Below are positions 888 through 22,889 of a DNA stretch of 22,889 nucleotides, in pieces; position 1 is the first letter of the stretch; every line of letters begins with the position of its first letter. Origin of the DNA: a virus; the IMG/VR virus record IMGVR_UViG_3300006810_000422, positions 1 to 22,889 of that record; one strand, 5' to 3'. The translations under genes were made by a program, and so were the position numbers. The notes below the pieces were generated by a model that made no database searches, was not told the origin of the DNA, and saw only the letters and a program-made list of their open reading frames with translations.

Positions 888-1133
888 ATGAAAGACGAAT
901 GGGCAACCACTTGGTACGATTTGATTTGCGAATCAGAACAGTTGATAGAAGCAATTGGAGAAGGTGGAAGTGAATGCTTTACACCGAGCCAACTTATGTC
1001 GATGAATATAAAATCTATTCATTTAGAGAAACAAGCAGAAGCTATACAAAAATCTTGGAAGCAAAACAGAACTGATGAGATTTGGGATGTAGCAGTCAAA
1101 CTAGACAGAATAATAAACCCCATAAAATTATGA
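888..1133 (+). CDS. Small hypothetical protein (81 aa)
   Basis: An 81-residue acidic protein with two Trp residues near its N-terminus (E-W-A-T-T-W-Y-D) and no recognised domain or membrane segment. The start is set by a strong Shine-Dalgarno sequence and by directly following the previous stop. Its TGA overlaps the ATG of the endolysin gene (ATGA at 1130-1133), so it is probably co-translated with the lysis enzyme. Its role is unknown; position alone is not enough to call it a lysis partner. Confidence 0.7.
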   Translation: MKDEWATTWYDLICESEQLIEAIGEGGSECFTPSQLMSMNIKSIHLEKQAEAIQKSWKQNRTDEIWDVAVKLDRIINPIKL

Positions 1134-1522
1134 TTACATTTGAACAAATAATATTAGCAATAGCACTAGTCGAAAGTTCCTTGAATCCCCTAGCAATAGG
1201 GGACAACGGGAACGCAGTCGGCTACCTACAAATTACACCCGCTGTAGTACAAGATGTTAACACATTCTACGGCTCGACCTACTCACTCGATGACAGATAT
1301 GATGTGGTCAAGTCAGTGAATATGTGCAAGAAGTATCTCAACTATTGGGGTGATGTATACGAACAGAAGACGGGGCTTAAACCAACTCCCGAAATCTACG
1401 CCAAGATGTGGAACGGTGGATGCTACGCTTGGAAGAAGACTGACCCCAAGGTACTGAAGAACCTTGACATCTATTGGGATAAAGTGTTGACTGAAATACA
1501 TAGACTTTATGATACAAAATGA
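1130..1522 (+). CDS. SLT-type lytic transglycosylase / endolysin (130 aa)
   Basis: A peptidoglycan-degrading enzyme of the lysozyme-like / soluble lytic transglycosylase fold. After a short N-terminal helix it shows ALVESSLNPLAIGDNGNAVG and then YLQIT. This is the family's E-S-S-x-N-P ... A-x-G-x-x-Q-I core, with E15 as the likely catalytic acid. Later M-W-N-G-G (about 100-104) and Y-W-D-K-V match the family's C-terminal part. I chose ATG 1130 because it follows the usual AAAATTATG-type leader and overlaps the previous stop; an in-frame ATG at 1082 would add 16 residues inside the preceding gene. At 130 residues it is a minimal single-domain enzyme without a signal peptide, so it probably needs a holin. 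It sits among early genes on the strand opposite to the virion genes. Confidence 0.85.
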   Translation: MITFEQIILAIALVESSLNPLAIGDNGNAVGYLQITPAVVQDVNTFYGSTYSLDDRYDVVKSVNMCKKYLNYWGDVYEQKTGLKPTPEIYAKMWNGGCYAWKKTDPKVLKNLDIYWDKVLTEIHRLYDTK

Positions 1523-7078: not shown

Positions 7079-7120
7079 CCCAGTCCTTTTTTTCTGAATT
7101 TTTAAAGGGCTGGGTTTTTT
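7079..7120 (+). terminator. Intrinsic terminator at the convergent junction
   Basis: CCCAGTCCTTT (7079-7089) pairs with AAAGGGCTGGG (7104-7114) in an 11-bp stem with one G-U pair and a 14-base T-rich loop, followed by six T residues (7115-7120). It ends plus-strand transcription. The minus-strand product of the same stem is followed by only a short T-run, so it may also stop the virion operon, less efficiently. The U-tract overlaps the stop codon (7119-7121) of the convergent 2072-residue gene. The remaining bases of the 7026-7118 gap hold a direct repeat of AGTTATGT and nothing else I recognise. Confidence 0.85.
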
Positions 7121-10100
7121 ATTGCTTAATTAAATCCATAATGGATTGCAATGCTGGGTCATAGATAGCCTCCTTCATAGGAGTAATCACTGCGTCACCC
7201 AACGGGTCATCCCTATATATAGGAAGCTCACCGGCTCTACGTTTGTAGAATCGTTTCTTTCCTTCCTTGAATACTCCGGGGCCGTAACGGTAGTACCACA
7301 CATTTGAGTAAGGAGATAATTTAAGGAAAGGATCCATAAAGGATTGCTCTCCATCCCTTACCTTTACAAAATCATTACTCATTTGATATCCTTGAGATAA
7401 AGCTACCGGTGCAAAGTAAGATGCAACAGTACCAAATGGATCATCAGCAAATTTACCTACAGTAAATGAAGATACACCGGCTATTCTAAACGCACCGTCT
7501 GTAGCAATATCGTTTTGATATATGTCACGTCCGGAAACCAATGCCTTAAGTATATCAATAGGGAATCCTACTAATTGGAACAAGAATGCTAAGTACATAA
7601 GCCCTAGTATCGCATCCTTCTTTTCACCTAAGCTAGATTTAGTGCTAAAGATTACAGCAAGATATCTATTGCCTACCAAGTTTGCTTGTTTAATAACAAA
7701 CGATTTCATTGTGTAAAGCATACGGGTATTCGGGTTGTCGCTTACAACTAACGGCATCTCCAATCGATTGATAGGTTGTGTCTCTAATAATTTTCTTACG
7801 ACTGCCTCACGTACTCGGGGTGAGTCGTGTATGCCTTGCCTTAAATCACCTAGTGTAAGATCAGCATCGACCTCACCTTGCATATAAATTAATTCCTTAC
7901 GAAGATTTTTATACGCACGACTGTTAGTAGACAACTTACTTACTCGTTTCATTCTGTTATAGTTAGTAGTAAGATTAGTTTCCTTAAGCAACTGATCCAT
8001 ACGAGTAAATCCACCGGCCTTAAGCATTGTCCTTACGGCATCGTTCATAAATTTTTTGACACCCTTACCTTTGGGGTCAGTTACAAACTCAGCACTTACA
8101 GTAGATGTATTGATGCCGGCCATACGTAAAGTAAAGTCCTTCTTAGTAAACAATGTAGCCATTACTCGGGCTATGTTATTGTCCATACTCATAAAAGCTA
8201 TGTCATATAACTGAGACAGTGTAGTAGTAGGCTGAACCAGAAGGGAACCATAACTAAATGTTCTAGACATTTCAGCTAACATATTTTCTGAACTCTTATT
8301 CGGGCCAAACAATTGAGTCAACCCGTACTGAAGATCAATGAACTTAGTTTTATCAATCTCGCCACGTTGCATTAGCTCAACAATCTTCAATGACAATGAT
8401 CCGCTAGAATCCTTGAGGTCAATGACATCGTGGTTCTTTCCGTCAATAGTTACCGGTGCAGTAGTAGCGTTCCTCGCCTTACCTAATAGTTCTTGCTCCG
8501 CATTTGCTACTATGACAGATGACACGTACTGGCCGAGTGCTTTGGATGGATCCTCGTAGAACTCAAGCTCCTCCTCGGTTAACATATTGTTAGTCCTTGT
8601 TTTAAAATTAGCCGGTATCTTAGATGAGTTAACAAAACTTTTCTTACGCAAATATTTTTGTAACTCCACCGCCTTCTGCTCCATTGTTACTATCTGTATT
8701 TCTCCGGCCCCTTGTCTGCGTTTGTTTTCTATTCTAAGGTACTCAACAAAATCTTCTGACACAGCTTGACCGTAGTAATTCATTAACCCTTCGAGATCCT
8801 TTACTCGACGTGGGTAGTACTCAAACAAATAGTTTACATCTTGACCACTAGCAATAGCTTGTTGGTGAAGCTTATCTAACAACGGCCTTACTAGTAGATT
8901 AAAATCATTCAACAGATTATACTTACGTAGCAATGCGTTACGCTCATTGATTAGAGTATCTCTCTCGGAGTTGTTAACACTGTCAGTTTTAGGACTGTAT
9001 GTTAATAATACTTGTAACCGCTTCTTATCCTTTTTGTTTTTGATACCTATCAACCCTAGCTGAAAACTTCTTAGTACTCTAGTAGCCTCAGTCTGAGCTG
9101 TATCTATTTTATTAAAATGCCTTACTAGTTCTGTTTGTATCTCAACGTGTATATCTCTAAAGAACATACTGGCTGTTTGTAAAAATCTTTTTGCTTGTCT
9201 TCCGGCTTGGCTCAAGAGCTTTGCCATCTGCCGTTTCTGATAAGAAGGTAGCTTGCCTTCGGGTACATTGGCCGGGTTAGTAATCCTTGAAGCATCTAAA
9301 CTATTCGTCCCCTCGAGTACTGAGTTGGCCTTGTCTACAATCTTCTGGTTCACTGGCCTAGCATTCGGATCCACTGACTGTAGTAACTTGATTGAGTCAG
9401 CTATGATAAACGCTGCCTCCTTGTTGGACTCAAGCTCGGGCCCCATAATTCTAGTAAGGTAGGACTGAACGGATTTGATAAGGGACTTAACCTTCTCCAT
9501 TGCTTTGCCTTCAAACATAGTACCCTCAGTAGTTTTACCATCCAGTATTTGTTGAATAGCAAACCTAGAATACTCAGCACCGAAGTCAGTATCAGTATCT
9601 AACTCACCGTATACTTCTTGTAATAAAAGTTTCTGCTCAGTGGTAAGATCCTTACCGATGTTGGCCATTGCTTTTTCAAACGCAGCCCGAGCTGAAAGCT
9701 TAGGGTAACGTTTCATAATCACCTTGTGCATAGCCGCGTGAATAGCTTCCTCACGTAGTGCGGCCTTGGATCCCTCGCTACCACGTTTAGCTAATAGCTC
9801 CGGGTTGTACTCAATAGTTTGGGTCTCGTAGTTATACTGAGCATCCCTAGTTATATCAGTACGTGCGACAACCTTTACCCCTAGCTTATCAGCTAGCTTC
9901 TGTAGGTTAGCTACAGCCTCAGCGATTACTCCTTGCTGTTGGGACTGCTGTTGTTTCTGAGATGCAGCTACAGCGAACGGTAACTTTCTTTTAACCATTG
10001 ACTGAACAACATCTTGTGATTCTGAAACCATTGCTTGGACAGCCGGATCCGCCTTGTTTGATTTTAACTTAAGTAAATCTTTAATGTTTACAACGTCAGT

Positions 10101-13100
10101 AAATCCACCAATGCCCTTGCCTTTTATAAGATTAGGATATGCTGAGTGCTCAGAAACACCCAAGTTACTTGCGTCAGTAAAGCCTTCTTGTCCTTGTTCA
10201 AAATCAACAGCGGCCACGACATCACCAAACTTAGAATTTTTAAACTTAGGATCAACAAACATATCAACCATCTTTGATATATCCGGGAACCCTTCTTTAA
10301 CTAATCCCTTAGCACCTAACTTTGCGTCAACTTTTATAAACTGATCACCTCTGATTGCAAATGTACTTCCCTTCAGAGCTTTATTAAAATCCTCTACACT
10401 TTTAAATTCTTTTGAAAACAAAGGACGAGCGTCTGACTTTTCTCCTATCTTATTTAAAGCCCTAAGACGCATATCATTGACTACCTCCAAGAATCTTTTC
10501 TTGGAAATCTTTTTTGTTTTAATAGCGTACTTAACTTCTGCCACATAAGCCTTAAGGAAAGTTTCATTAGCCCTTAAGTTGTCATAACCGAATAAAGAAA
10601 TAACACCAATCCCCGACGAAGTGTTAATTCTGTTATTGAAATTATTAAAATTCATATTTGCAGAGAATGCCCAGCCAGCGTTACGCTTTCTGTTTGCGGG
10701 AATAAAAGCATAGCCCGGGCCACCAAGTAACTCTATCTTTATACCACTGTTCTTATTTAATCCAGTGTATGTTCCGACCTTCATACGGTCAGCAAAGAAT
10801 GTAAATACCTTAACACCTTTCAAGGAGCTCCGGGTAATTGGCTTTACATTCCCGAACTTAATAGCTTTAGAAGCACCTACTACCGGTGCATTATCGAGGC
10901 CATCACCATCAATGATAGTGTCAGCAACAGAACCGTGTTCCCCTTCGACATCACTCTCAATCTGGGAGTCAGTAAAAGTAGAAGCACCTACAATTGGTTG
11001 TTCACCTCTTATCAAAGGATCAATGCCAAATTCTGTATCTGGTAAAAATACAAATCCACTAGAATCCCTTAGGTTTCTTATAATAGCTTTGTCGTTATTG
11101 TCGTAATCCTTTATTTCTCTTACCTTAGATGTAGCTCTTTGCGATAATTGATCTTGAACATTGCTAGGATAATTAGCACGTGAATCTTTTTTCTGTTCAT
11201 CAATAGCCGGATCCGGGGTATCTTTATATTTTTGACTAGCTTCCTTAGCACTCTTAGCTGTAACATACCTTACTACTGGTTGGAACTCAGCACTGGGTTT
11301 GCCCACTGCTTTTGTAGAACCACGGACAGATGTTGTTACTCTAGTTTTTATTTCATACAATTTCTCTCCATCCGGAACTAACTTAGTTACCTTTCCATCT
11401 TCTTCTACGACCCTACCGTCATCTCTATTTGTAGTAGCATTTGAAATTTGTATAGGAGAAGCACCAGCAATAGGAGAACGAACTCCGGCCGCGGAAACTT
11501 GAGGAACTGTTTCCATATAAGCAGCATCCTCTAGCCTCATATCTATTTCGCTATCATAGTCTTGTTCGGATGTAGGTGTGTACCCACGCTTCCTTACATA
11601 AGGATTAACAGTAGCTAGTGCATCGAACGCACGCTTGTCTAACTCTCTTAGCTTAGCGTATAGTTCTTTACGACGCTTAGGTTTGTAAGGAGCATCCTTC
11701 ATTGCTTGCTCTTGAGCTCTCCTTACTTTAAATTCATTTATTATATCTAGTTGAGAAGCACCTACTGTCGGGTCTTGTTCCCTCTGTATCTTTGCTACCT
11801 CTTCTAGTGCACGTAAGCCCTCTTGTATGACAGCTTCATCGGCCGTATTAGTAGGGTCAGCCAACGCAAGTATACCCTCGTCTATAGAAGATTGATCCAA
11901 CTGACCGGTCGGATCCGTTAGAGCTTCAATGCCTTCCCTTAATGCTTCTTGGTCAAGGGTTCCGGTAGGATCATCTAGTGCAGTCAGAACTTCTTGAGCT
12001 TCGGCCCTTGCTTGTTCTCTTACTGCTATCACCTCAGCCTTTTGTTTCGGGGTAAGATCCATTGTATCTAAGTCAACGTCCTCCCCGAATATACCAACGG
12101 TTTCTGTAGGAGCAAAGTCAGTCTCTACTTCAGTCTCTACCTCCGGCTCAACAGTGGGATCAACCTCGGGCTCTACTTTAATTTCACTTACTATAATACT
12201 TTCCTTGGGTACACCATCCAGTTTACCTACTGATTCTTCTATAGTCTTTTGTGCACCCTCTAGTGAGTCAGCTTCGATAGGATCACTGATAACCTCTTGG
12301 CCATCCTTGGTATATTTTACAGAGAATTGTTTCTTGTTTCCTAATTCGGTTTCACTAACGGCTGGAGTTTCACCTACTGGTATTTCAATATCACCTATCT
12401 TGGCCATTAACTTTCCGCTACCTCCGATAACAGTAGTAGTACCACCGGCTGATAAAGAACCTACCAAACCTTGGTACATATTGTCCGTAACATTTTCTAA
12501 AGTAAATACTTCTCTGTTTGAATCCAACCCACTATGCTTAGTAAGTAAATCCAAAGAGAAAGCTTCAGCGGTTTCCGTAGCACCCTCAGCAAACATAGCA
12601 GTAGCTACATCTTGTTTTAATGAACGAACCACTTGTTGAAATTCATTCTTCTTAAGTACACCTTTCTTTAACAAAAAGTTATTTACCTTTCCCTTAATAG
12701 AAGAAGGTATAAGCTTACTAATAGCAAACATATTCAAAGCAGTACCGATTAACTGCTGACTATATCTCACCATATTAGTTTGATTAAGTTCCTCGTCAGA
12801 AAAGTCTGCCAGTTTTTTACCCGTAGTATTTTCCGCTTCTTTAACAGCTTCGCTATCCATTTGTCCAGCTATATTAGAAGCAATACCACCCGGCCCTAGG
12901 GCCAGATATGGAAGTAAAGATCCGTACTGACCCATACCTTGGATTGCTTGTCCCCCAAGAGATTGTTCAAAATCCGGATCAAGCCCTACGGTGTCGGACA
13001 TAGCGTCAGCTTCTGCTCTAAGATCCGCAGCTTTAGCTCGTAACCCGGCTTCATTAATTTCCCTCTTAGTGCCTAAGGTAGGACCACCAGCAAATGAAAC

Positions 13101-13337
13101 TTGAGAAATATAAGGAAGAATAAACTTACCGAACTGAGCCAAGTTTGACAGCTGCCCGGCACGTGAATTTAAATCACCTCTCCTAAATCCAACCTCTACG
13201 GATTTTATAATGTCACCCCCTAAGCCTTCTTGCGTAACACTTTTTAAGTAAGCATCGGGGTCAAACTCGCTATCTAAATCCGTAGGAGTAGAGACAGATG
13301 AAACACTTTCGAGATAAGCATCGGGATCAAAAGCCAT
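7119..13337 (-). CDS. Giant internal virion / ejection protein (2072 aa)
   Basis: A 2072-residue virion protein, by position and make-up the counterpart of the large internal core proteins that podophages eject with their DNA. The N-terminus has two copies of F-D-P-D-A-Y-L. Glycine-rich helices follow (about 110-190 and 290-310), then an acidic Pro/Glu region (about 385-410) and three 19-residue D-P-T repeats starting at 456, 475 and 494. The motif P-x-(V/A)-G-A-S occurs four times (523, 622, 781, 818). A metallopeptidase-like segment has E-E-A-I-H at 1196-1200, followed by long helical stretches. A hydrophobic region lies near 1905-1935 and a basic/aromatic tail follows. The C-terminal part resembles large polyvalent phage proteins. 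No transglycosylase or polymerase motif was found. It overlaps the upstream stop as TAATG (13335-13339) and ends at the terminator. Confidence 0.8.
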   Translation of the reverse strand: MAFDPDAYLESVSSVSTPTDLDSEFDPDAYLKSVTQEGLGGDIIKSVEVGFRRGDLNSRAGQLSNLAQFGKFILPYISQVSFAGGPTLGTKREINEAGLRAKAADLRAEADAMSDTVGLDPDFEQSLGGQAIQGMGQYGSLLPYLALGPGGIASNIAGQMDSEAVKEAENTTGKKLADFSDEELNQTNMVRYSQQLIGTALNMFAISKLIPSSIKGKVNNFLLKKGVLKKNEFQQVVRSLKQDVATAMFAEGATETAEAFSLDLLTKHSGLDSNREVFTLENVTDNMYQGLVGSLSAGGTTTVIGGSGKLMAKIGDIEIPVGETPAVSETELGNKKQFSVKYTKDGQEVISDPIEADSLEGAQKTIEESVGKLDGVPKESIIVSEIKVEPEVDPTVEPEVETEVETDFAPTETVGIFGEDVDLDTMDLTPKQKAEVIAVREQARAEAQEVLTALDDPTGTLDQEALREGIEALTDPTGQLDQSSIDEGILALADPTNTADEAVIQEGLRALEEVAKIQREQDPTVGASQLDIINEFKVRRAQEQAMKDAPYKPKRRKELYAKLRELDKRAFDALATVNPYVRKRGYTPTSEQDYDSEIDMRLEDAAYMETVPQVSAAGVRSPIAGASPIQISNATTNRDDGRVVEEDGKVTKLVPDGEKLYEIKTRVTTSVRGSTKAVGKPSAEFQPVVRYVTAKSAKEASQKYKDTPDPAIDEQKKDSRANYPSNVQDQLSQRATSKVREIKDYDNNDKAIIRNLRDSSGFVFLPDTEFGIDPLIRGEQPIVGASTFTDSQIESDVEGEHGSVADTIIDGDGLDNAPVVGASKAIKFGNVKPITRSSLKGVKVFTFFADRMKVGTYTGLNKNSGIKIELLGGPGYAFIPANRKRNAGWAFSANMNFNNFNNRINTSSGIGVISLFGYDNLRANETFLKAYVAEVKYAIKTKKISKKRFLEVVNDMRLRALNKIGEKSDARPLFSKEFKSVEDFNKALKGSTFAIRGDQFIKVDAKLGAKGLVKEGFPDISKMVDMFVDPKFKNSKFGDVVAAVDFEQGQEGFTDASNLGVSEHSAYPNLIKGKGIGGFTDVVNIKDLLKLKSNKADPAVQAMVSESQDVVQSMVKRKLPFAVAASQKQQQSQQQGVIAEAVANLQKLADKLGVKVVARTDITRDAQYNYETQTIEYNPELLAKRGSEGSKAALREEAIHAAMHKVIMKRYPKLSARAAFEKAMANIGKDLTTEQKLLLQEVYGELDTDTDFGAEYSRFAIQQILDGKTTEGTMFEGKAMEKVKSLIKSVQSYLTRIMGPELESNKEAAFIIADSIKLLQSVDPNARPVNQKIVDKANSVLEGTNSLDASRITNPANVPEGKLPSYQKRQMAKLLSQAGRQAKRFLQTASMFFRDIHVEIQTELVRHFNKIDTAQTEATRVLRSFQLGLIGIKNKKDKKRLQVLLTYSPKTDSVNNSERDTLINERNALLRKYNLLNDFNLLVRPLLDKLHQQAIASGQDVNYLFEYYPRRVKDLEGLMNYYGQAVSEDFVEYLRIENKRRQGAGEIQIVTMEQKAVELQKYLRKKSFVNSSKIPANFKTRTNNMLTEEELEFYEDPSKALGQYVSSVIVANAEQELLGKARNATTAPVTIDGKNHDVIDLKDSSGSLSLKIVELMQRGEIDKTKFIDLQYGLTQLFGPNKSSENMLAEMSRTFSYGSLLVQPTTTLSQLYDIAFMSMDNNIARVMATLFTKKDFTLRMAGINTSTVSAEFVTDPKGKGVKKFMNDAVRTMLKAGGFTRMDQLLKETNLTTNYNRMKRVSKLSTNSRAYKNLRKELIYMQGEVDADLTLGDLRQGIHDSPRVREAVVRKLLETQPINRLEMPLVVSDNPNTRMLYTMKSFVIKQANLVGNRYLAVIFSTKSSLGEKKDAILGLMYLAFLFQLVGFPIDILKALVSGRDIYQNDIATDGAFRIAGVSSFTVGKFADDPFGTVASYFAPVALSQGYQMSNDFVKVRDGEQSFMDPFLKLSPYSNVWYYRYGPGVFKEGKKRFYKRRAGELPIYRDDPLGDAVITPMKEAIYDPALQSIMDLIKQ

Positions 13338-16346: not shown

Positions 16347-19019
16347 TTATTCTGCCTTATCTACTGATCTAAATGATTCTATTCCGTCAACCTTTATTGC
16401 CCGTAGAATAGGACGGCCGACTGTATTGTTAATTGTTAATTGTAAACCATATGCTCGTGGATTTCCTAATCTTCCACGTATTGAAACGTCAGACCCGGAA
16501 TCCAGAGTTGTTCCATTGAATCCACTTAATGTACCTACCGGTACAGTTCTGTCAAGGTTTTCTAACTCAGCCGATATGTCAAAGTCCGATTGACTCTGGC
16601 TGGATGACTCAACGTGCATATCAAATGACCTCCACTTTTTTCTATCAAGTGTATTAAAAGTAAATTGTCGAGTACTAGCGGACCCTTGTATCTGTGGTTG
16701 CTGAGTAGCTCCACCTACTACCGTGATAACTTGGTCAATATTATCAACACGTGCTTCTAGTTTGTTGATTCCTCCTAATACATTGGTAGTATAAACCCCT
16801 ATGTTATCCCCAGTTCCGGCAATAAACATATTGTCTATAGAATAATTAGAAACGCTAACAGTATCGACTGACTCCCACTGTTGGTTTAAAAAGTTATATA
16901 CAATAATAGCGTTGTTAGATGAAGAGTTATCCAATGGTACAGCTAAGTAATACTTGTTATCAAAGTAAACACTTAGTGCTTTTGACCTATGCTCTTTGTT
17001 AATCCTATCAACGGTTGCTTGTATTGATTCACTTAACGGGACTTGTATACCACGTAGCTGGTATCCCTCAATGAACCCAATACCGTATACTCCATTGTCG
17101 GATAGGAATAAAATCTGATTACCGATCTGTTGGATTGACTTACGTGCTAAACATCCAATCTCGTCAGTCAATAGTTTGCTCGTAGCTTGGTTGAGTACCG
17201 TACTGTTTTGTATTAAGTGAATACTATTTCTGTTAAATACAATAAGAGTATCATCTGAAAAAGAATGTAAACCGTTGATAAAGTCAGCTGTTCCGGCATT
17301 GAATCGGAAGTTAGCATATATCTGATCATAGGTATCTGAGTCCAGTATGTCAGATGCTATCACTTGGTCCGATGTTCCGTTAGCTGTAAAGCTATTTGCC
17401 GCATCATTAACGGTATAATTAAAAGGCATTACCAATCTACGTTGGTGGTATGTAGCAAAAGGTGGGGCCGGCATATGTGTGAACCCCAAACCTACAGAAA
17501 CGCTTTGAATAAAAACTGGATCAGAAGCACGTACTTGTGCTTGTGTTTTAGCAGAAGTAATATCGTTAGCTTCTATTACAAATGACACTCCGGCTGCCGG
17601 GGTTACATTACCAGCTGTGTCAGTTACCGAAAATGTAGATGCTACCTCTACTTCAAACTCAGAAGTAGAATTTACTTTAGATACTATTTGGTTACCATTT
17701 ACATCTGATTGTAAGTTAGTAAAAGAGATAGGTTGATTTAAAGATAATCCGTGAGCACCGTCTGTGCCTACTGTCAAAGTAGTCCCGCTTATAGCTACAG
17801 CGTTTACTGTAACTGCAGCTGAACTAGAAAAAGTTTTATTAATAATAAATTCACTAGGCTCCGTTAATCCACAAGAAGCTGTAGGGCCGTCATCCGTTAG
17901 TGTAAGCACATCACCTACATTTAAAGACTGACTTGTATGCAATCCGCCTACTAAGTTAATAATAGCAAAATCTTTTACAGAAGTAAATATAGACAAAGGT
18001 TGTGTGTACTCACCACTTGCTACTAATGTAAATTCAGTAGACACGGTAGGGTCACTTGTAACTGTGTAGGTTTCATCTCCGCTTGCCGTTAAAGAATATG
18101 TAAATGCAGTGTCAGATGTCTTGGTAATTGTTTTACCACTTCCGTTTGGATCAGTAGTAGAAAACCCTAAGTTAGCTATAGTCACGGAATCCCCGGTAGA
18201 TAAATTGTGGTCAGTAGATGTATTAATAGTGCATACATTGCTGGATCCGACTACGGATGCTGTACTTATTGTAGAAATCTTTAGTTCATTTTCTAACGCA
18301 GTAGCACCATCATGGAATATAAATACCTTATTGAATGCTTGTATCATATCCACATTATTGCCCACTGTAGTAGAGGCCGGATACGTTAGGTCAACAGCTT
18401 TTTCTGTATTTAAATTATAAGCGATAGCTTTAGTATTAGTAGCTAGTATGATTGACTGACTATCATCTTTATTAGGATCAGAGAATGCACAAGAACCTTG
18501 TACTCCATTGATAGCATCGTCATCAATAGTTAATACTCCTAGTACTACGGTACCGCTAGGTGCGGCAGTGTATGTCTGGTTAGTTATCTTAACACTATCT
18601 GCATCTACTACAGTTATAGGAACCGGGCCGTCAACAACGGCCGGAGCTATGCCGGTTAAATTTGTTAACTCAATATCTCCAGTAGCACCGACAGTAAATC
18701 CGTGAGCTGACGCAAAGTTAATCTGTATGTTGCCAGAGGACGGTGTATTTAAATTAATAGAAGCTGAGTTAATAGTCGAGTCCCTAATGAAGCAAGGTAT
18801 AGTTAACGCTCCACTAGTAGCTATAGGTGCTAACACTAAGTCAATACCCTTACGTACTTGCCACTCACCGTTAGTACCCATACGGCCGTTCTGTGAATCC
18901 GCTAGTGTGCCCGGCTTTAACTGATCCGGCCTTAGCCTATTATTAAAACCCAAGAAGCCACGGTCACCGTCTTCCATAACCTTGTCATCCAATTTTCCGT
19001 ATGTACTATATCTAGGCAT
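16347..19019 (-). CDS. Podophage nozzle / tail tubular protein B-like (890 aa)
   Basis: A large tail-tube protein, probably the nozzle through which DNA leaves. Evidence is the N-terminal block G-F-L-G-F-N-N-R-L-R-P-D-Q-L with Q-V-R-K-G-I-D, the central Y-H-Q-R-R-L-V-M-P-F, and repeated propeller-like strands such as L-I-V-F-N-R-N-S-I-H-L-I and Y-Y-L-A-V-P with A-I-I-V-Y-N-F-L-N-Q-Q-W-E-S. Three inserted modules of about 80 residues (roughly 83-160, 252-330 and 403-480) share A/D-H-x-L/F, G-D/N-x-V/I and a terminal F-T/F-E strand, like the small beta-sandwich repeats of phage proteins. I start at ATG 19019, which forms a TAATG overlap with the preceding stop; ATG 19046 would add 9 residues inside that gene. 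Confidence 0.8.
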   Translation of the reverse strand: MPRYSTYGKLDDKVMEDGDRGFLGFNNRLRPDQLKPGTLADSQNGRMGTNGEWQVRKGIDLVLAPIATSGALTIPCFIRDSTINSASINLNTPSSGNIQINFASAHGFTVGATGDIELTNLTGIAPAVVDGPVPITVVDADSVKITNQTYTAAPSGTVVLGVLTIDDDAINGVQGSCAFSDPNKDDSQSIILATNTKAIAYNLNTEKAVDLTYPASTTVGNNVDMIQAFNKVFIFHDGATALENELKISTISTASVVGSSNVCTINTSTDHNLSTGDSVTIANLGFSTTDPNGSGKTITKTSDTAFTYSLTASGDETYTVTSDPTVSTEFTLVASGEYTQPLSIFTSVKDFAIINLVGGLHTSQSLNVGDVLTLTDDGPTASCGLTEPSEFIINKTFSSSAAVTVNAVAISGTTLTVGTDGAHGLSLNQPISFTNLQSDVNGNQIVSKVNSTSEFEVEVASTFSVTDTAGNVTPAAGVSFVIEANDITSAKTQAQVRASDPVFIQSVSVGLGFTHMPAPPFATYHQRRLVMPFNYTVNDAANSFTANGTSDQVIASDILDSDTYDQIYANFRFNAGTADFINGLHSFSDDTLIVFNRNSIHLIQNSTVLNQATSKLLTDEIGCLARKSIQQIGNQILFLSDNGVYGIGFIEGYQLRGIQVPLSESIQATVDRINKEHRSKALSVYFDNKYYLAVPLDNSSSNNAIIVYNFLNQQWESVDTVSVSNYSIDNMFIAGTGDNIGVYTTNVLGGINKLEARVDNIDQVITVVGGATQQPQIQGSASTRQFTFNTLDRKKWRSFDMHVESSSQSQSDFDISAELENLDRTVPVGTLSGFNGTTLDSGSDVSIRGRLGNPRAYGLQLTINNTVGRPILRAIKVDGIESFRSVDKAE

Positions 19020-19264
19020 TAGCAGTTCCAAGCTCTCCTTGACCAATAGTTAGCTGAAAGTTTTCCCTTACCGCCCTTGATACCAGCACTACGTGCACAG
19101 TAGCTTTTCTTACGAGCTGGACGATTTTTCTTGATTGTCATATTCGCGTCTCCGAAACGAACAATCTTTTCCTTACCATCTTGGCAAGCTTTTACAACGA
19201 ACTTCTTACCGCCTTGAACTTCTCGGCGGGGTACGTTGCATTTCATTTTGTCTTTGTCTGCCAT
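19019..19264 (-). CDS. Small basic Cys-containing phage protein (81 aa)
   Basis: An 81-residue, Lys/Arg-rich protein with M-K-C-N-V-P-R-R, K-K-F-V-V-K-A-C, G-K-E-K-I-V-R-F-G-D-A-N-M-T-I-K-K and a C-terminal N-Y-W-S-R-R-A-W-N-C. I recognise this as a conserved but uncharacterised class found in many phage and large-virus genomes, with the K-x-I-x-R-F-G-D core. Its four Cys residues could bind metal or form disulfides. It sits between the tailspike and nozzle-like genes, coupled to the latter by TAATG. A structural or DNA-binding role is possible but unproven. Confidence 0.72.
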   Translation of the reverse strand: MADKDKMKCNVPRREVQGGKKFVVKACQDGKEKIVRFGDANMTIKKNRPARKKSYCARSAGIKGGKGKLSANYWSRRAWNC

Positions 19265-19284: not shown

Positions 19285-20886
19285 TTAAGTATATATAACA
19301 CTCTGAGATGTACCATCCGTTGTGTTGCCGGATGGGCTGGTTGCACCACTTGTGTTGCCGGATCCGATAGTTGCATTATCTGCGTTTACAACCCCAGATC
19401 GCCTAGATATTATTCCGAATGCTCCGTTACTATCAACACTCGCCAAGCTAGTAGCGTGAACATAAGATGCTGATACGCTAATACCATCACTTGAATTTGA
19501 ATTAAATGTTCCGCTTGTAACTGTTGCTGTCGACGCTTCTGTCACACTTAATCCGTCCCCACTATTATTTGAAGAAATACAACCATTGGAACTCAACGAA
19601 GAACAGTTTTCCAATAAAATACCGTCAGAACCACTATGACTTACATCTAATCTGCTTCCAGAAAAATTACCATTTATTAGGTGCACTCCATAAGATCCAC
19701 AGCCTACTCCATTGCCACCGACAGTAATGTCATCACCTACAACATTTCCATTAGAAGCAATAAAAATCCCAACATCAGCTATATTTGTTAATGTAACATC
19801 TTCTGCATATATCACCCCACCCTCATTAGCTAAGATACCTTCACCCGCTGTATTGTCAGCTCTTTTTCGTATATCATTTGCGGTCCCGCCTTTGCAGTAA
19901 ATTACGCCGTTGCGGTTAGCAAAATAAGCGTCACCGTAAATAACTGAGCTAGTTGAATCCTCCGCAAAAAGAGCGGCACCTATTGATGCTACAAAAGCAT
20001 CTGAACCGCAATTATTAACATCAACCTCATTTGCTAAAATGTAAGCACCTTCATTTGAAAATACTCCATTTCTAGCAAAAAACTTAAATACCACATCTGT
20101 TCCAAACTGTAAAGCTCCACCGTTTTGAACCTTGCATCCGATGGGATCCGAACCGTTACCCGCACCCGAAGTTGGACTTCCGTTAGTATGACCAGAATAA
20201 TTATTACCATTAAACGTTATCTTATCGATAAGCTTTATATTATAATTTCCATCAAGCCCTATTGCGTACATACGTTGTGCTGCTTGCCCCGTAAAATCAA
20301 ATACTAAATTAGTAGAAGAAGAAGCAGCTCCCTCTATACTTATCATTTGACCATCTGGATGCTCGTACTGGATATTTACTCCAGCACCTTGATTAGTAGC
20401 TGTCATATCTACGTTATGAGTTCCAGCGGGTATTGATATTTTTAAAGGTGCAAGTATTCTTCGGTAAGGAAGGTAATTTGAAAATATTTCTTTGTAACCA
20501 AATGTGGTGGGAACGGTAATGGTGGTTGATGAAACAATGTTGCCAGCCGGAAATGTTTCGGAGCCAATTTTAAAATTGCCGTCACCATAAAACTTAGAGT
20601 AATCAATTGTCCCGGAAATAAGATAATTTCCAGTTGGAACAAATATTCTACTTGAAGCTGCTTCAGCAGTTTGAATAGCTAAAGTGTCATTAGTTACACC
20701 ATCACCGACTGCACCATAATCTTTTATACTAACAATGGAAGGTATCTCGACAGTTTTCCCCAACTTCACCTTAACATCATTGATGTTTATAAAGTCATTC
20801 TTTAGCCCTAAAACACCTTTAAAGTTTTGGATTGTTGAACCATCAACTTTTTCTGGTAAATTCTGTAATTTTTCTAACCGTGGCAT
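19285..20886 (-). CDS. Tailspike with right-handed beta-helix (533 aa)
   Basis: A likely receptor-binding tailspike that may cleave a surface polysaccharide. After an N-terminal adaptor (about 1-50) it has I-K-D-Y-G-A-V-G-D-G-V-T-N-D at 54-67, the entry motif of pectate-lyase-like beta-helices, then A-I-Q-T-A-E-A-A and I-F-V-P-T-G-N-Y-L-I. Residues about 230-500 are a ladder of short rungs with G-V/I-x-N and S-G/S-D-G-I/L-x-V/L units, typical of the helix coils. The C-terminus is Ser/Thr/Gly-rich and short, without a clear trimerisation domain or chaperone. Active-site residues cannot be placed with confidence, so hydrolase activity is an inference. It overlaps the preceding stop by TAATG. 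Confidence 0.85.
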   Translation of the reverse strand: MPRLEKLQNLPEKVDGSTIQNFKGVLGLKNDFININDVKVKLGKTVEIPSIVSIKDYGAVGDGVTNDTLAIQTAEAASSRIFVPTGNYLISGTIDYSKFYGDGNFKIGSETFPAGNIVSSTTITVPTTFGYKEIFSNYLPYRRILAPLKISIPAGTHNVDMTATNQGAGVNIQYEHPDGQMISIEGAASSSTNLVFDFTGQAAQRMYAIGLDGNYNIKLIDKITFNGNNYSGHTNGSPTSGAGNGSDPIGCKVQNGGALQFGTDVVFKFFARNGVFSNEGAYILANEVDVNNCGSDAFVASIGAALFAEDSTSSVIYGDAYFANRNGVIYCKGGTANDIRKRADNTAGEGILANEGGVIYAEDVTLTNIADVGIFIASNGNVVGDDITVGGNGVGCGSYGVHLINGNFSGSRLDVSHSGSDGILLENCSSLSSNGCISSNNSGDGLSVTEASTATVTSGTFNSNSSDGISVSASYVHATSLASVDSNGAFGIISRRSGVVNADNATIGSGNTSGATSPSGNTTDGTSQSVIYT

Positions 20887-21128
20887 TATGCTTTTTTTAC
20901 TTTTGCTTTGGGTGTGTTGGATACAAATTGTTTGCCTTGTGCTCCTCCAGCTTTTTTCTTTCTAGCTGTTGAAGCCCTTTCGGACTTTGTAAGACTCTTG
21001 GCCTTAGCCATTGGAAGGCACCGATCCGGGTTCTTCTTGTTCTTTGAAGTTCCGCAAGGTCCTTTAATCGACCCATCAATTGAGATGCGTACCCAGTTTT
21101 GTTTCCTCCAGTTTGCAAGCTCACCCAT
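20886..21128 (-). CDS. Small basic phage protein (80 aa) with K-G-P-C-G-T-S motif
   Basis: An 80-residue Lys-rich protein reading W-R-K-Q-N-W-V-R-I, then I-K-G-P-C-G-T-S-K-N-K-K-N-P-D-R-C-L-P, then L-T-K-S-E-R-A-S-T-A-R-K-K-K and G-K-Q-F-V-S-N-T. This pattern is familiar from conserved small phage and large-virus proteins of unknown function. The two Cys residues in C-G-T-S and D-R-C-L-P are the best-conserved part and could bind metal. It is joined by TAATG junctions to the genes on both sides, between the 46-residue protein and the tailspike. Position suggests a virion or assembly role; the sequence proves none. Confidence 0.72.
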   Translation of the reverse strand: MGELANWRKQNWVRISIDGSIKGPCGTSKNKKNPDRCLPMAKAKSLTKSERASTARKKKAGGAQGKQFVSNTPKAKVKKA

Positions 21129-21377: not shown

Positions 21378-21674
21378 TTATTTGTTTATTAGTTTACGTA
21401 CTACCATTATACCAACGACAACCGCCATTAGCAATGAAGTACAAGATGGTTCCGGGACTGTTCCCTTGTATTCAACCCCTAGTCTAAAGTCAAATTCATC
21501 CCAAGTGTATTGCACGCCCTCGAACATTAAGCCGTCAAACTCTTGTCTTAGGTAACTAGGCTCGTCCGGGATAAGAAAAAATCCATAGCTTGTGGTTTCT
21601 GGTCTTACGGGTTCTAACTGAATCAAAGGAAACTCTTCCTCTTCTGTTGGGAATAATTGGTATTCGTGGCTCAT
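21378..21674 (-). CDS. Protein with PEP-CTERM-like C-terminal sorting tail (98 aa)
   Basis: A 98-residue acidic protein (E-E-E-E-F near 11-15) ending in V-P-E-P-S-C-T-S-L-L, a hydrophobic stretch (M-A-V-V-V-G-I-M-V-V) and the basic end R-K-L-I-N-K. That order of V-P-E-P-S, membrane helix and basic tail is the layout of the PEP-CTERM signal, which bacterial exosortases recognise and cut. Such proteins normally also have an N-terminal signal peptide; none is visible here. It overlaps the previous stop as ATGA, immediately after a one-helix membrane protein. I infer a possible surface or membrane-anchored phage product in an exosortase-bearing host. A chance resemblance of a simple tail-anchored protein remains the main alternative. 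Confidence 0.68.
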   Translation of the reverse strand: MSHEYQLFPTEEEEFPLIQLEPVRPETTSYGFFLIPDEPSYLRQEFDGLMFEGVQYTWDEFDFRLGVEYKGTVPEPSCTSLLMAVVVGIMVVRKLINK

Positions 21675-21841
21675 TTTTTAAATAAGGATGTTATGATTGA
21701 TGCACATTCTCTAAATATTCTAGAGAATATATTGTTCTTAGGTAAGAACATTACTACGATTGATATGATACCAATGTAAGCAAATGTCATACCTAGTATG
21801 TTGTCTTGATAGTGTGTAAATATATAAGTAAAAAATTCCAT
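21671..21841 (-). CDS. Small single-helix membrane protein (56 aa)
   Basis: ATG 21841 overlaps the previous stop (TAATG) and gives a 56-residue frame ending at TGA 21671-21673, which overlaps the next ATG. Residues 16-33 (L-G-M-T-F-A-Y-I-G-I-I-S-I-V-V-M-F-L) form a clear transmembrane helix, followed by P-K-N-N and a basic amphipathic tail ending S-L-F-K-K. It lies near a holin-like gene and directly before the PEP-CTERM-like gene, so a lysis or envelope role is possible. Two tandem inverted repeats lie inside its coding sequence. An A6 run at the stop could allow a -1 slip into the next gene. Confidence 0.6.
   Translation of the reverse strand: MEFFTYIFTHYQDNILGMTFAYIGIISIVVMFLPKNNIFSRIFRECASIITSLFKK
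21706..21750 (-). repeat. Two tandem perfect inverted repeats inside a membrane-protein gene
   Basis: ATTCTCTA (21706-21713) and TAGAGAAT (21721-21728) are an 8-base inverted repeat with a 7-base loop. Four bases on, TGTTCTTA (21733-21740) and TAAGAACA (21743-21750) form a second 8-base inverted repeat with a 2-base centre. In the minus-strand mRNA they can fold as two back-to-back hairpins just upstream of the PEP-CTERM-like gene. Both lie within the coding sequence of the 56-residue protein. Confidence 0.5.
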
Positions 21842-22629
21842 TACATTACTGGTGATACTATTGTTGTGTCATCTTCGTTTATGGGGGTCTCTACCCTAGG
21901 TAGTTCCTCCTTGACTTCTTTTGTTTCTTCCTCTAACTCTTCTTCTAATGATTCTTCCAACTCTTCTTCTTCTTCTTTTTCTAATTCTGTTTGTTTTTCT
22001 AGCTCGGGCTCTTTAGATGACTCTTCTTCATTTGACTCCTCCGGTTCTGCATCTGTTTCTAGTTCTGTATCTTCTTCTGTATCTGTTTCTGATTCATCAC
22101 TTTGATCCTCGGAGACAACGGGCACGGGCTCGTCGACGGGTTCGGCGATTTCTTCGGCACTGCTTTCGACGATAGTCTCTGCTTTCTCAACAAAGGTCTG
22201 AGCAACTTCTAGCTTTTCTTGGATGACTCCTTGTCCCCAGTGGTCAATGTCCTCAAAGGTTACAAATGTTTCTACTACAGCTGAAATGAACATAGGGGGC
22301 TCTATACGCTCCTCTACGATGTCATTAGCTACTGAGGCTACGAACACCTCAGTTTGATCCAAAGCGACTCCAGTCTGTGCTACAGCGGCTGTAGAGACAG
22401 CAACGCTTCCGGCCGTTCCTAACTCACTTACTTTCTGTACTACCGGAAAGTCTTTTACCCTTTCGATGAAAGATTTTTTAAGAGCTGAACTAGCTTTTCT
22501 AGCTGACTTAATAGCATCCGCGGACTGCTTCTTAATGTCTTCAGAACTTTCGTAGCTCTTTCCATCCAGTACTTCGGACAGAGAGTCACGCAGTTCTTTG
22601 AGTTTCTTGTTGGCAGTTTGCTTATCCAT
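21841..22629 (-). CDS. Acidic-tailed protein (262 aa), possible virion-assembly factor
   Basis: A 262-residue protein in three parts. Residues 1-65 are a charged, Lys-rich helical region. Residues 66-125 are Ala/Val/Thr-rich and moderately hydrophobic, with no convincing membrane helix. From about 155 onward is a long acidic tail in which Glu and Asp dominate (for example E-K-E-E-E-E-E-L-E-E-S-L-E-E-E-L near 217-232). Such tails occur in scaffolding-like and chaperone-like phage proteins, but no family is recognised. It starts 22 bases after the holin-like gene's stop and couples to the next gene by TAATG. The Ser-rich frame on the opposite strand is its mirror image and not a gene. Confidence 0.7.
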   Translation of the reverse strand: MDKQTANKKLKELRDSLSEVLDGKSYESSEDIKKQSADAIKSARKASSALKKSFIERVKDFPVVQKVSELGTAGSVAVSTAAVAQTGVALDQTEVFVASVANDIVEERIEPPMFISAVVETFVTFEDIDHWGQGVIQEKLEVAQTFVEKAETIVESSAEEIAEPVDEPVPVVSEDQSDESETDTEEDTELETDAEPEESNEEESSKEPELEKQTELEKEEEEELEESLEEELEEETKEVKEELPRVETPINEDDTTIVSPVM

Positions 22630-22651: not shown

Positions 22652-22889
22652 TTACTTCACTGATGATGATCCAAAGTAGAACCCTACGATGGCTAATACT
22701 GTTTGTCTAATCTCGGGCAGTATTACATACCCGTGTAAAGTCTGATAGCTTGTTCCCTTTGCAAAGCCGAACCACTTGCTGTACTCATCCGCTACTGTAA
22801 CACCTTCGCCACTGTGAGCCAATAGGAATGGAGCAATGATAGCTCCGAACATTACAGTACCTACGATGAACCTACGGACTATAGCACCA
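22652..22889 (-). CDS. Holin-like small membrane protein, 5' end outside window
   Basis: The frame ends at TAA 22652-22654 and stays open to the window edge. ATG 22852 is a possible start (66 residues), but 12 further in-frame codons upstream (including R-R-F-I-V-G-T-V) look like the natural start of the first membrane helix, so the gene is probably cut by the edge. It has two likely helices, I-V-G-T-V-M-F-G-A-I-I-A-P-F-L-L and T-V-L-A-I-V-G-F-Y-F-G-S, joined by a polar segment with W-F-G-F-A-K-G. The size and topology fit phage holins, which form the pore that releases the endolysin. Another small virion-operon membrane protein is equally possible. Confidence 0.6.
   Translation of the reverse strand, partial: GAIVRRFIVGTVMFGAIIAPFLLAHSGEGVTVADEYSKWFGFAKGTSYQTLHGYVILPEIRQTVLAIVGFYFGSSSVK

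Follow-up and report, generated by a model that had tools for sequence, protein, structure and literature searches.

The window analysed here is a stretch of 22,889 bases, a virus record that encodes DnaB, an SLT transglycosylase, a pectate-lyase-type spike, a head-closure protein and very long virion-like proteins. Its largest open reading frame (7119-13337, minus strand) specifies a 2,072-residue protein without a family match of note, and the SLT-type lytic transglycosylase (146 residues; 1082-1522, plus strand) has no obvious signal peptide and is located on the strand of the replication genes, far from the holin-like gene described below. Our main concern is PEP98, a protein of 98 residues encoded on the minus strand (21378..21674). 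It begins with an ATG start codon and comprises a body (residues 1-72) followed by VPEPS, a hydrophobic helix and RKLINK, so that its C-terminal sequence reads ...GTVPEPSCTSLLMAVVVGIMVVRKLINK. The first-pass annotation had described a tripartite PEP-CTERM-like layout without an N-terminal signal peptide, and both halves of this description hold. P-E-P near the C-terminus, the hydrophobic core, RK and a short tail are all in place (VPEPSCTSLLMAVVVGIMVVRKLINK, residues 73-98; 21381..21458, minus strand), and the acidic body of about 66 residues lacks any N-terminal hydrophobic segment or signal peptide. In a structure model (pLDDT 62, with low confidence for the body), a C-terminal helix occupies residues 76-97 and starts directly after P-E-P. 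The first 76 codons differ between the window and its relative L004 by 12 synonymous and 0 non-synonymous changes, which indicates purifying selection on the body. PEP98 scores 15.6 bits against TIGR02595, just under the cut-off of 16, and 13.2 bits against PF07589, below the cut-off of 20.7. Because it thus fails the cut-off as well as the signal peptide, two defining features of PEP-CTERM proteins, we speak of a PEP-CTERM-like tail and leave the protein itself outside the family; for the idea that it functions as a PEP-CTERM protein, its relatives provide the basis.

PEP98 is the last gene of a conserved three-gene module, which the earlier reading, correct about the PEP-CTERM-like tail, had overlooked together with the signal-peptide-bearing cargos that may take its place. 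The module opens with acid262 (21841..22629, minus strand), whose product has a basic, helical N-terminus, a weakly hydrophobic middle and a very acidic C-terminal half (75 D+E, 25 K+R), and continues with TM56 (21671..21841, minus strand), a single-helix membrane protein of 56 residues, whose stop overlaps the PEP98 start by 4 nt (ATGA). The usual upstream neighbour, outside the strict module, is a gene for a holin-like membrane protein (phrog_38283; 134 residues in L017), of which the window, cutting it at its end, holds the C-terminal part (22652..22889, minus strand). Wherever more than 2.5 kb of upstream sequence is available (52 loci), an acid protein and TM56 precede the cargo; 39 of these loci carry a cargo of the PEP98 kind (type A) and 13 an alternative cargo (type B); the TM56 stop overlaps the cargo start by 4 nt in type A and by about 25 nt in type B. 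Starting from TM56 instead, the best 80 of 145 relatives, which are not independent because many are contigs already seen, include 78 in which the complete next open reading frame ends in a PE-type tail. The remaining two are L301, which ends with its contig, and L299, where a reading of the frame gives a body ending in VPEPNDLGLVMGLILFALLFPIKWLKKYF. Searches of PHROGs and Pfam returned no function for TM56, the acid protein or the cargo bodies. The ATGA overlap fits translational coupling of TM56 and PEP98. A frameshift fusion of the two, conceivable as a source of the signal, was rejected, since relatives do not preserve the run of A at the overlap (L004 has AAGAAATGA, L081 AAACGATGA) and the sequence lacks the phase usual for -1 slippage. 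The module has tail-fibre-like genes on one side and the head-closure gene on the other. Of the 16 relatives whose sequence reaches far enough upstream of the latter, 10 lack the module, and hence we regard it as accessory.

How well is the tag kept? An initial scan of viral contigs found 14 relatives of PEP98, and wider scans yielded 69 type-A loci and, for the other cargo, 26 type-B loci, carried by a group of phages that are uncultured and mostly marine. The annotation had suggested looking for the same tail in related phage contigs, and across this large family it is indeed kept. [VI]-P-E directly precedes the hydrophobic core in all 49 distinct type-A proteins, 44 of which have P-E-P, and the loss of P-E-P from close homologues, raised as an objection, is not seen; close and distant homologues alike retain it. 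All 49 also share a hydrophobic core of 15-18 residues and a net positive C-terminus, behind bodies of about 66 residues whose net charge ranges from -7 to -16 and none of which contains a signal-like hydrophobic stretch (highest 15-residue mean 1.04). Among the loci fetched at that stage, P-E-P before a C-terminal hydrophobic segment occurred exclusively in open reading frames of this module, with 23 instances of PEP and no more than 6 for each other P-x-P in the same set (redundant copies counted). A match to the PEP-CTERM models above threshold, which PEP98 itself narrowly misses on TIGR02595, is found in other family members: L156 (...TVPEPSTYALLAGFAVLIFTMIKRRNK) exceeds both curated cut-offs (TIGR02595, 21.4 against 16; PF07589, 21.8 against 20.7) and L144 that of TIGR02595 (17.5 bits), most other homologues scoring below. 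The wider phage group, reached through the head-closure protein, contains PEP98-type proteins with more canonical tails. Aligned at the DNA level, type-A genes are nearly identical up to P-E-P and then continue into one of two tails, SCTSLLMAVVVGIMVVRKLINK or ADAGFITALIMTTFVAFCYFKNKQGKK, the second being without a match to the PEP-CTERM models. Class-2 tails (PEPADAG...FVAFCYFKNK) and type-B tails score poorly on these models and hardly resemble host tails.

The same slot accommodates unrelated cargos: the acidic body of about 66 residues without a signal peptide on the one hand, and beta-sandwich proteins of about 200 residues with one on the other. Type B, a protein of 205 residues, occupies the PEP98-type slot in the wider phage group and varies in its motif (6 PEP, 8 PEL, 9 PEM). 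Its structure model (pLDDT 66) shows a signal helix, a beta-sandwich body and a C-terminal helix. Matches of this fold to carbohydrate-binding-like proteins (Flo adhesins, CBM35) were weak, no PDB match having an E-value below 0.001, and therefore we do not take them as evidence. Type C (L271, L278), also with a beta-sandwich body, measures 197 residues, has a signal peptide and is 38-39% identical to type B in its body; for types B and C alike, the N-terminal signal peptide is indicated by hydropathy and by the model. The tail of the type-C protein of L271 shares 83-85% DNA identity with type-A tails, whereas type-C and type-A bodies show no DNA similarity above that of shuffled sequences. 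As judged from these sequence comparisons, tails have been exchanged between unrelated bodies.

Are the phage tails related to those of bacteria? We made a search profile of 58 PEP-CTERM tails from Verrucomicrobiota, collected with TIGR02595 only, and ran it against 6,712 distinct phage open reading frames. Cargos of the module took ranks 1-43, with L156 at the top (E=9e-13) and PEP98 at 14.8 bits (E=0.008); the first open reading frame from outside the module reached 8.4 bits and the best shuffled sequence 8.7 bits. A variant that included ten further host loci gave the same picture and is slightly circular, as those loci had been found with a phage profile. Verrucomicrobiota tails such as VPEPSTYALIAGFAAFLFVAIKRRK and their variants VPES, VPET and IPES mirror the phage tails, including the PES variants of the latter. 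Tails from small-genome members of the order discussed below, for example VPEPSTYALIAGFAAFLFVAIKRRK and VPESSTYALILGAVALGFAIRRCK, are close to the best phage tails and have the PES variant in common with them.

No exosortase was found in 16 phage contigs or in phage C75C1. Relatives of the head-closure protein occur in one Spartobacteria, one Flavobacteriales and one Saccharibacteria metagenome-assembled genome (MAG), in 2 of 388 Verrucomicrobiota genomes and in 6 of 273 genomes of one order in that phylum; among 277 Bacteroidota genomes the seed genome alone had one. One of those six lies in a 3.75-Mb contig that encodes about 60 PEP-CTERM proteins. There, a block of head and tail genes (L194; G147 C1:3066000-3085500) surrounds the distant head-closure relative and is probably a prophage; a simple motif search revealed no clear integrase in it. 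In the Verrucomicrobiota order with distant phage relatives, 93 of 132 genomes encode an exosortase, and many of the listed genomes that do not are 1 Mb or smaller. Homologues of type A, type B and TM56 were absent from the bacterial genomes and named phages searched, the bacterial matches that did appear being ordinary host PEP-CTERM tails, and the MAG phage regions with a head-closure protein lacked the module. Because the module is absent from all host genomes and MAG phage regions searched, the host is deduced from distant relatives only, and a Verrucomicrobiota host is likely but not established; a host of the Puniceicoccales or Opitutales kind would be our own suggestion. The window contains no tRNA gene that could have helped with host prediction.

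Display of a phage product by a host sorting enzyme would have an analogue in Gram-positive bacteria, whose phages also carry LPXTG/sortase surface proteins; the enzyme and the motif are unrelated, and the envelope in question here is Gram-negative. The closest named phage, C75C1 (OQ984151), has head-closure, DnaB, holin-like and Lys-rich genes in a similar order, whereas the module of acid protein, TM56 and tagged cargo was not seen in its small-gene region. Among the closest parallels is the PEP-CTERM/exosortase system (EpsH; TIGR02595/PF07589 with PF09721), with which the phage proteins share the C-terminal position, P-E-P, the hydrophobic helix and the basic end, the use of one tag on unrelated bodies and, for some relatives, scores over the curated cut-offs. 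They differ in that the tag is encoded by a phage without an exosortase, that type-A cargo has no signal peptide and that the acid protein and TM56 always come before the cargo. PEP-CTERM proteins are said to always carry an N-terminal signal peptide (PMC3237569). Other tripartite C-terminal tags, namely GlyGly-CTERM/rhombosortase, MYXO-CTERM/myxosortase and PGF-CTERM/archaeosortase (PMC3237569, PMC11980579), have the same succession of motif, helix and basic end but other signature motifs.

How might the module act? From the three-gene module, the conserved tag, its exchange and the absence of exosortase from the phage contigs searched, all of which rest on comparison of sequences, we infer a scheme of topology, cleavage, surface location, purpose and host, and we favour, with moderate confidence, the reading in which PEP98 serves as cargo in a mobile, phage-borne surface-display module that uses the host exosortase. 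We envision that the C-terminal helix of PEP98 would insert in the inner membrane of the host so that the body faces outwards and the basic end inwards, and that the host exosortase would cut at P-E-P and pass the body to the cell surface or the exopolysaccharide layer. The altered surface would most likely help the phage late in infection, for instance by keeping further phages from adsorbing, or progeny from attaching to a cell that is already doomed. We know of no description of an export route for PEP-CTERM proteins that lack a signal peptide. Speculatively, the short and strongly acidic body might cross the membrane as an N-terminal tail without one, perhaps assisted by TM56. In a more general form, which we offer only tentatively and think rather doubtful, phages of exosortase-bearing hosts might carry a mobile display cassette whose TM56 and acid protein help to export cargo without a signal peptide.

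The exosortase reading has to contend with the lack of a type-A signal peptide, with the scores of PEP98 below both cut-offs, with the poor likeness of class-2 and type-B tails to host tails, with the occurrence of PEL and PEM in type B and with the absence of the module from the host genomes searched. Conceivably, PEP98 is a small envelope protein that stays in the inner membrane and acts there alongside the acid protein and TM56, a possible task being lysis or the remodelling of the membrane, while P-E-P merely forms a helix-capping linker. In favour of a plain anchor of this kind are the lack of a signal peptide in type A, the tolerated variation after PE, where P, S, Q, F, L, M and V all occur, the predicted start of the helix right after the motif, the holin-like gene near the module in most loci and the weak performance of class-2 and type-B tails on the PEP-CTERM models. 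It leaves unexplained, however, that several tails are near-identical to bacterial PEP-CTERM tails, that some exceed curated cut-offs and that one tag occurs on unrelated bodies, some of which have a signal peptide and others not, and we consider it possible but unlikely. A spanin composed of the acid protein and PEP98 was considered as well and not retained.

Alternatively, type A might act as a decoy: by occupying or jamming the exosortase of the host, it would cause mis-sorting of the cell's own surface proteins, and the body itself would not be meant for display. This would suit a protein that amounts to an acidic peptide plus a sorting tail, without a signal peptide and with a mostly low-confidence structure; but the secreted beta-sandwich proteins with signal peptides in the same slot resemble genuine cargo and the type-A body shows strong conservation, and such a role therefore seems improbable to us. 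Even less credit is due to the notion that the products are part of the particle, as virion or ejection components: the genes do have a place among head and tail genes, with tail-fibre-like genes and the gene for head closure on either side, yet membrane-spanning tails are unusual for virion proteins, and the absence of the module from 10 of the 16 relatives, together with the failure to see it in C75C1, makes this very improbable.

On the favoured reading of host-exosortase display, the system is a phage-borne form of an already known sorting pathway, set apart by its unusual pair of partners and by a cargo that lacks a signal peptide. The annotation knew of no described phage system of this kind, and our search of the open-access literature agrees, having found no phage-encoded exosortase substrates. 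If true, this phage use of the exosortase system, of which that literature yielded no report, would supply short, testable substrates for an enzyme family of poorly known chemistry, a pointer to the host of a large uncultured phage group and an example of a sorting tag that spreads by recombination among unrelated bodies. The cargo without a signal peptide would also put to the test whether exosortase substrates need a standard export signal.

The region next to the module has features of its own. Two small Lys-rich proteins (20886-21128 and 19019-19264, minus strand) belong to PHROGs 23735 and 7595, of unknown function; such proteins are very conserved across the phage group and are partly present in phage C75C1, and several related ones end in RRxWxC. 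In the window and in L001, a pectate-lyase-fold spike of 533 residues (19285-20886, minus strand) lies between the two Lys-rich genes. The close relatives L002 and L016 have no such gene at this position, which would fit a gain by insertion or a loss.
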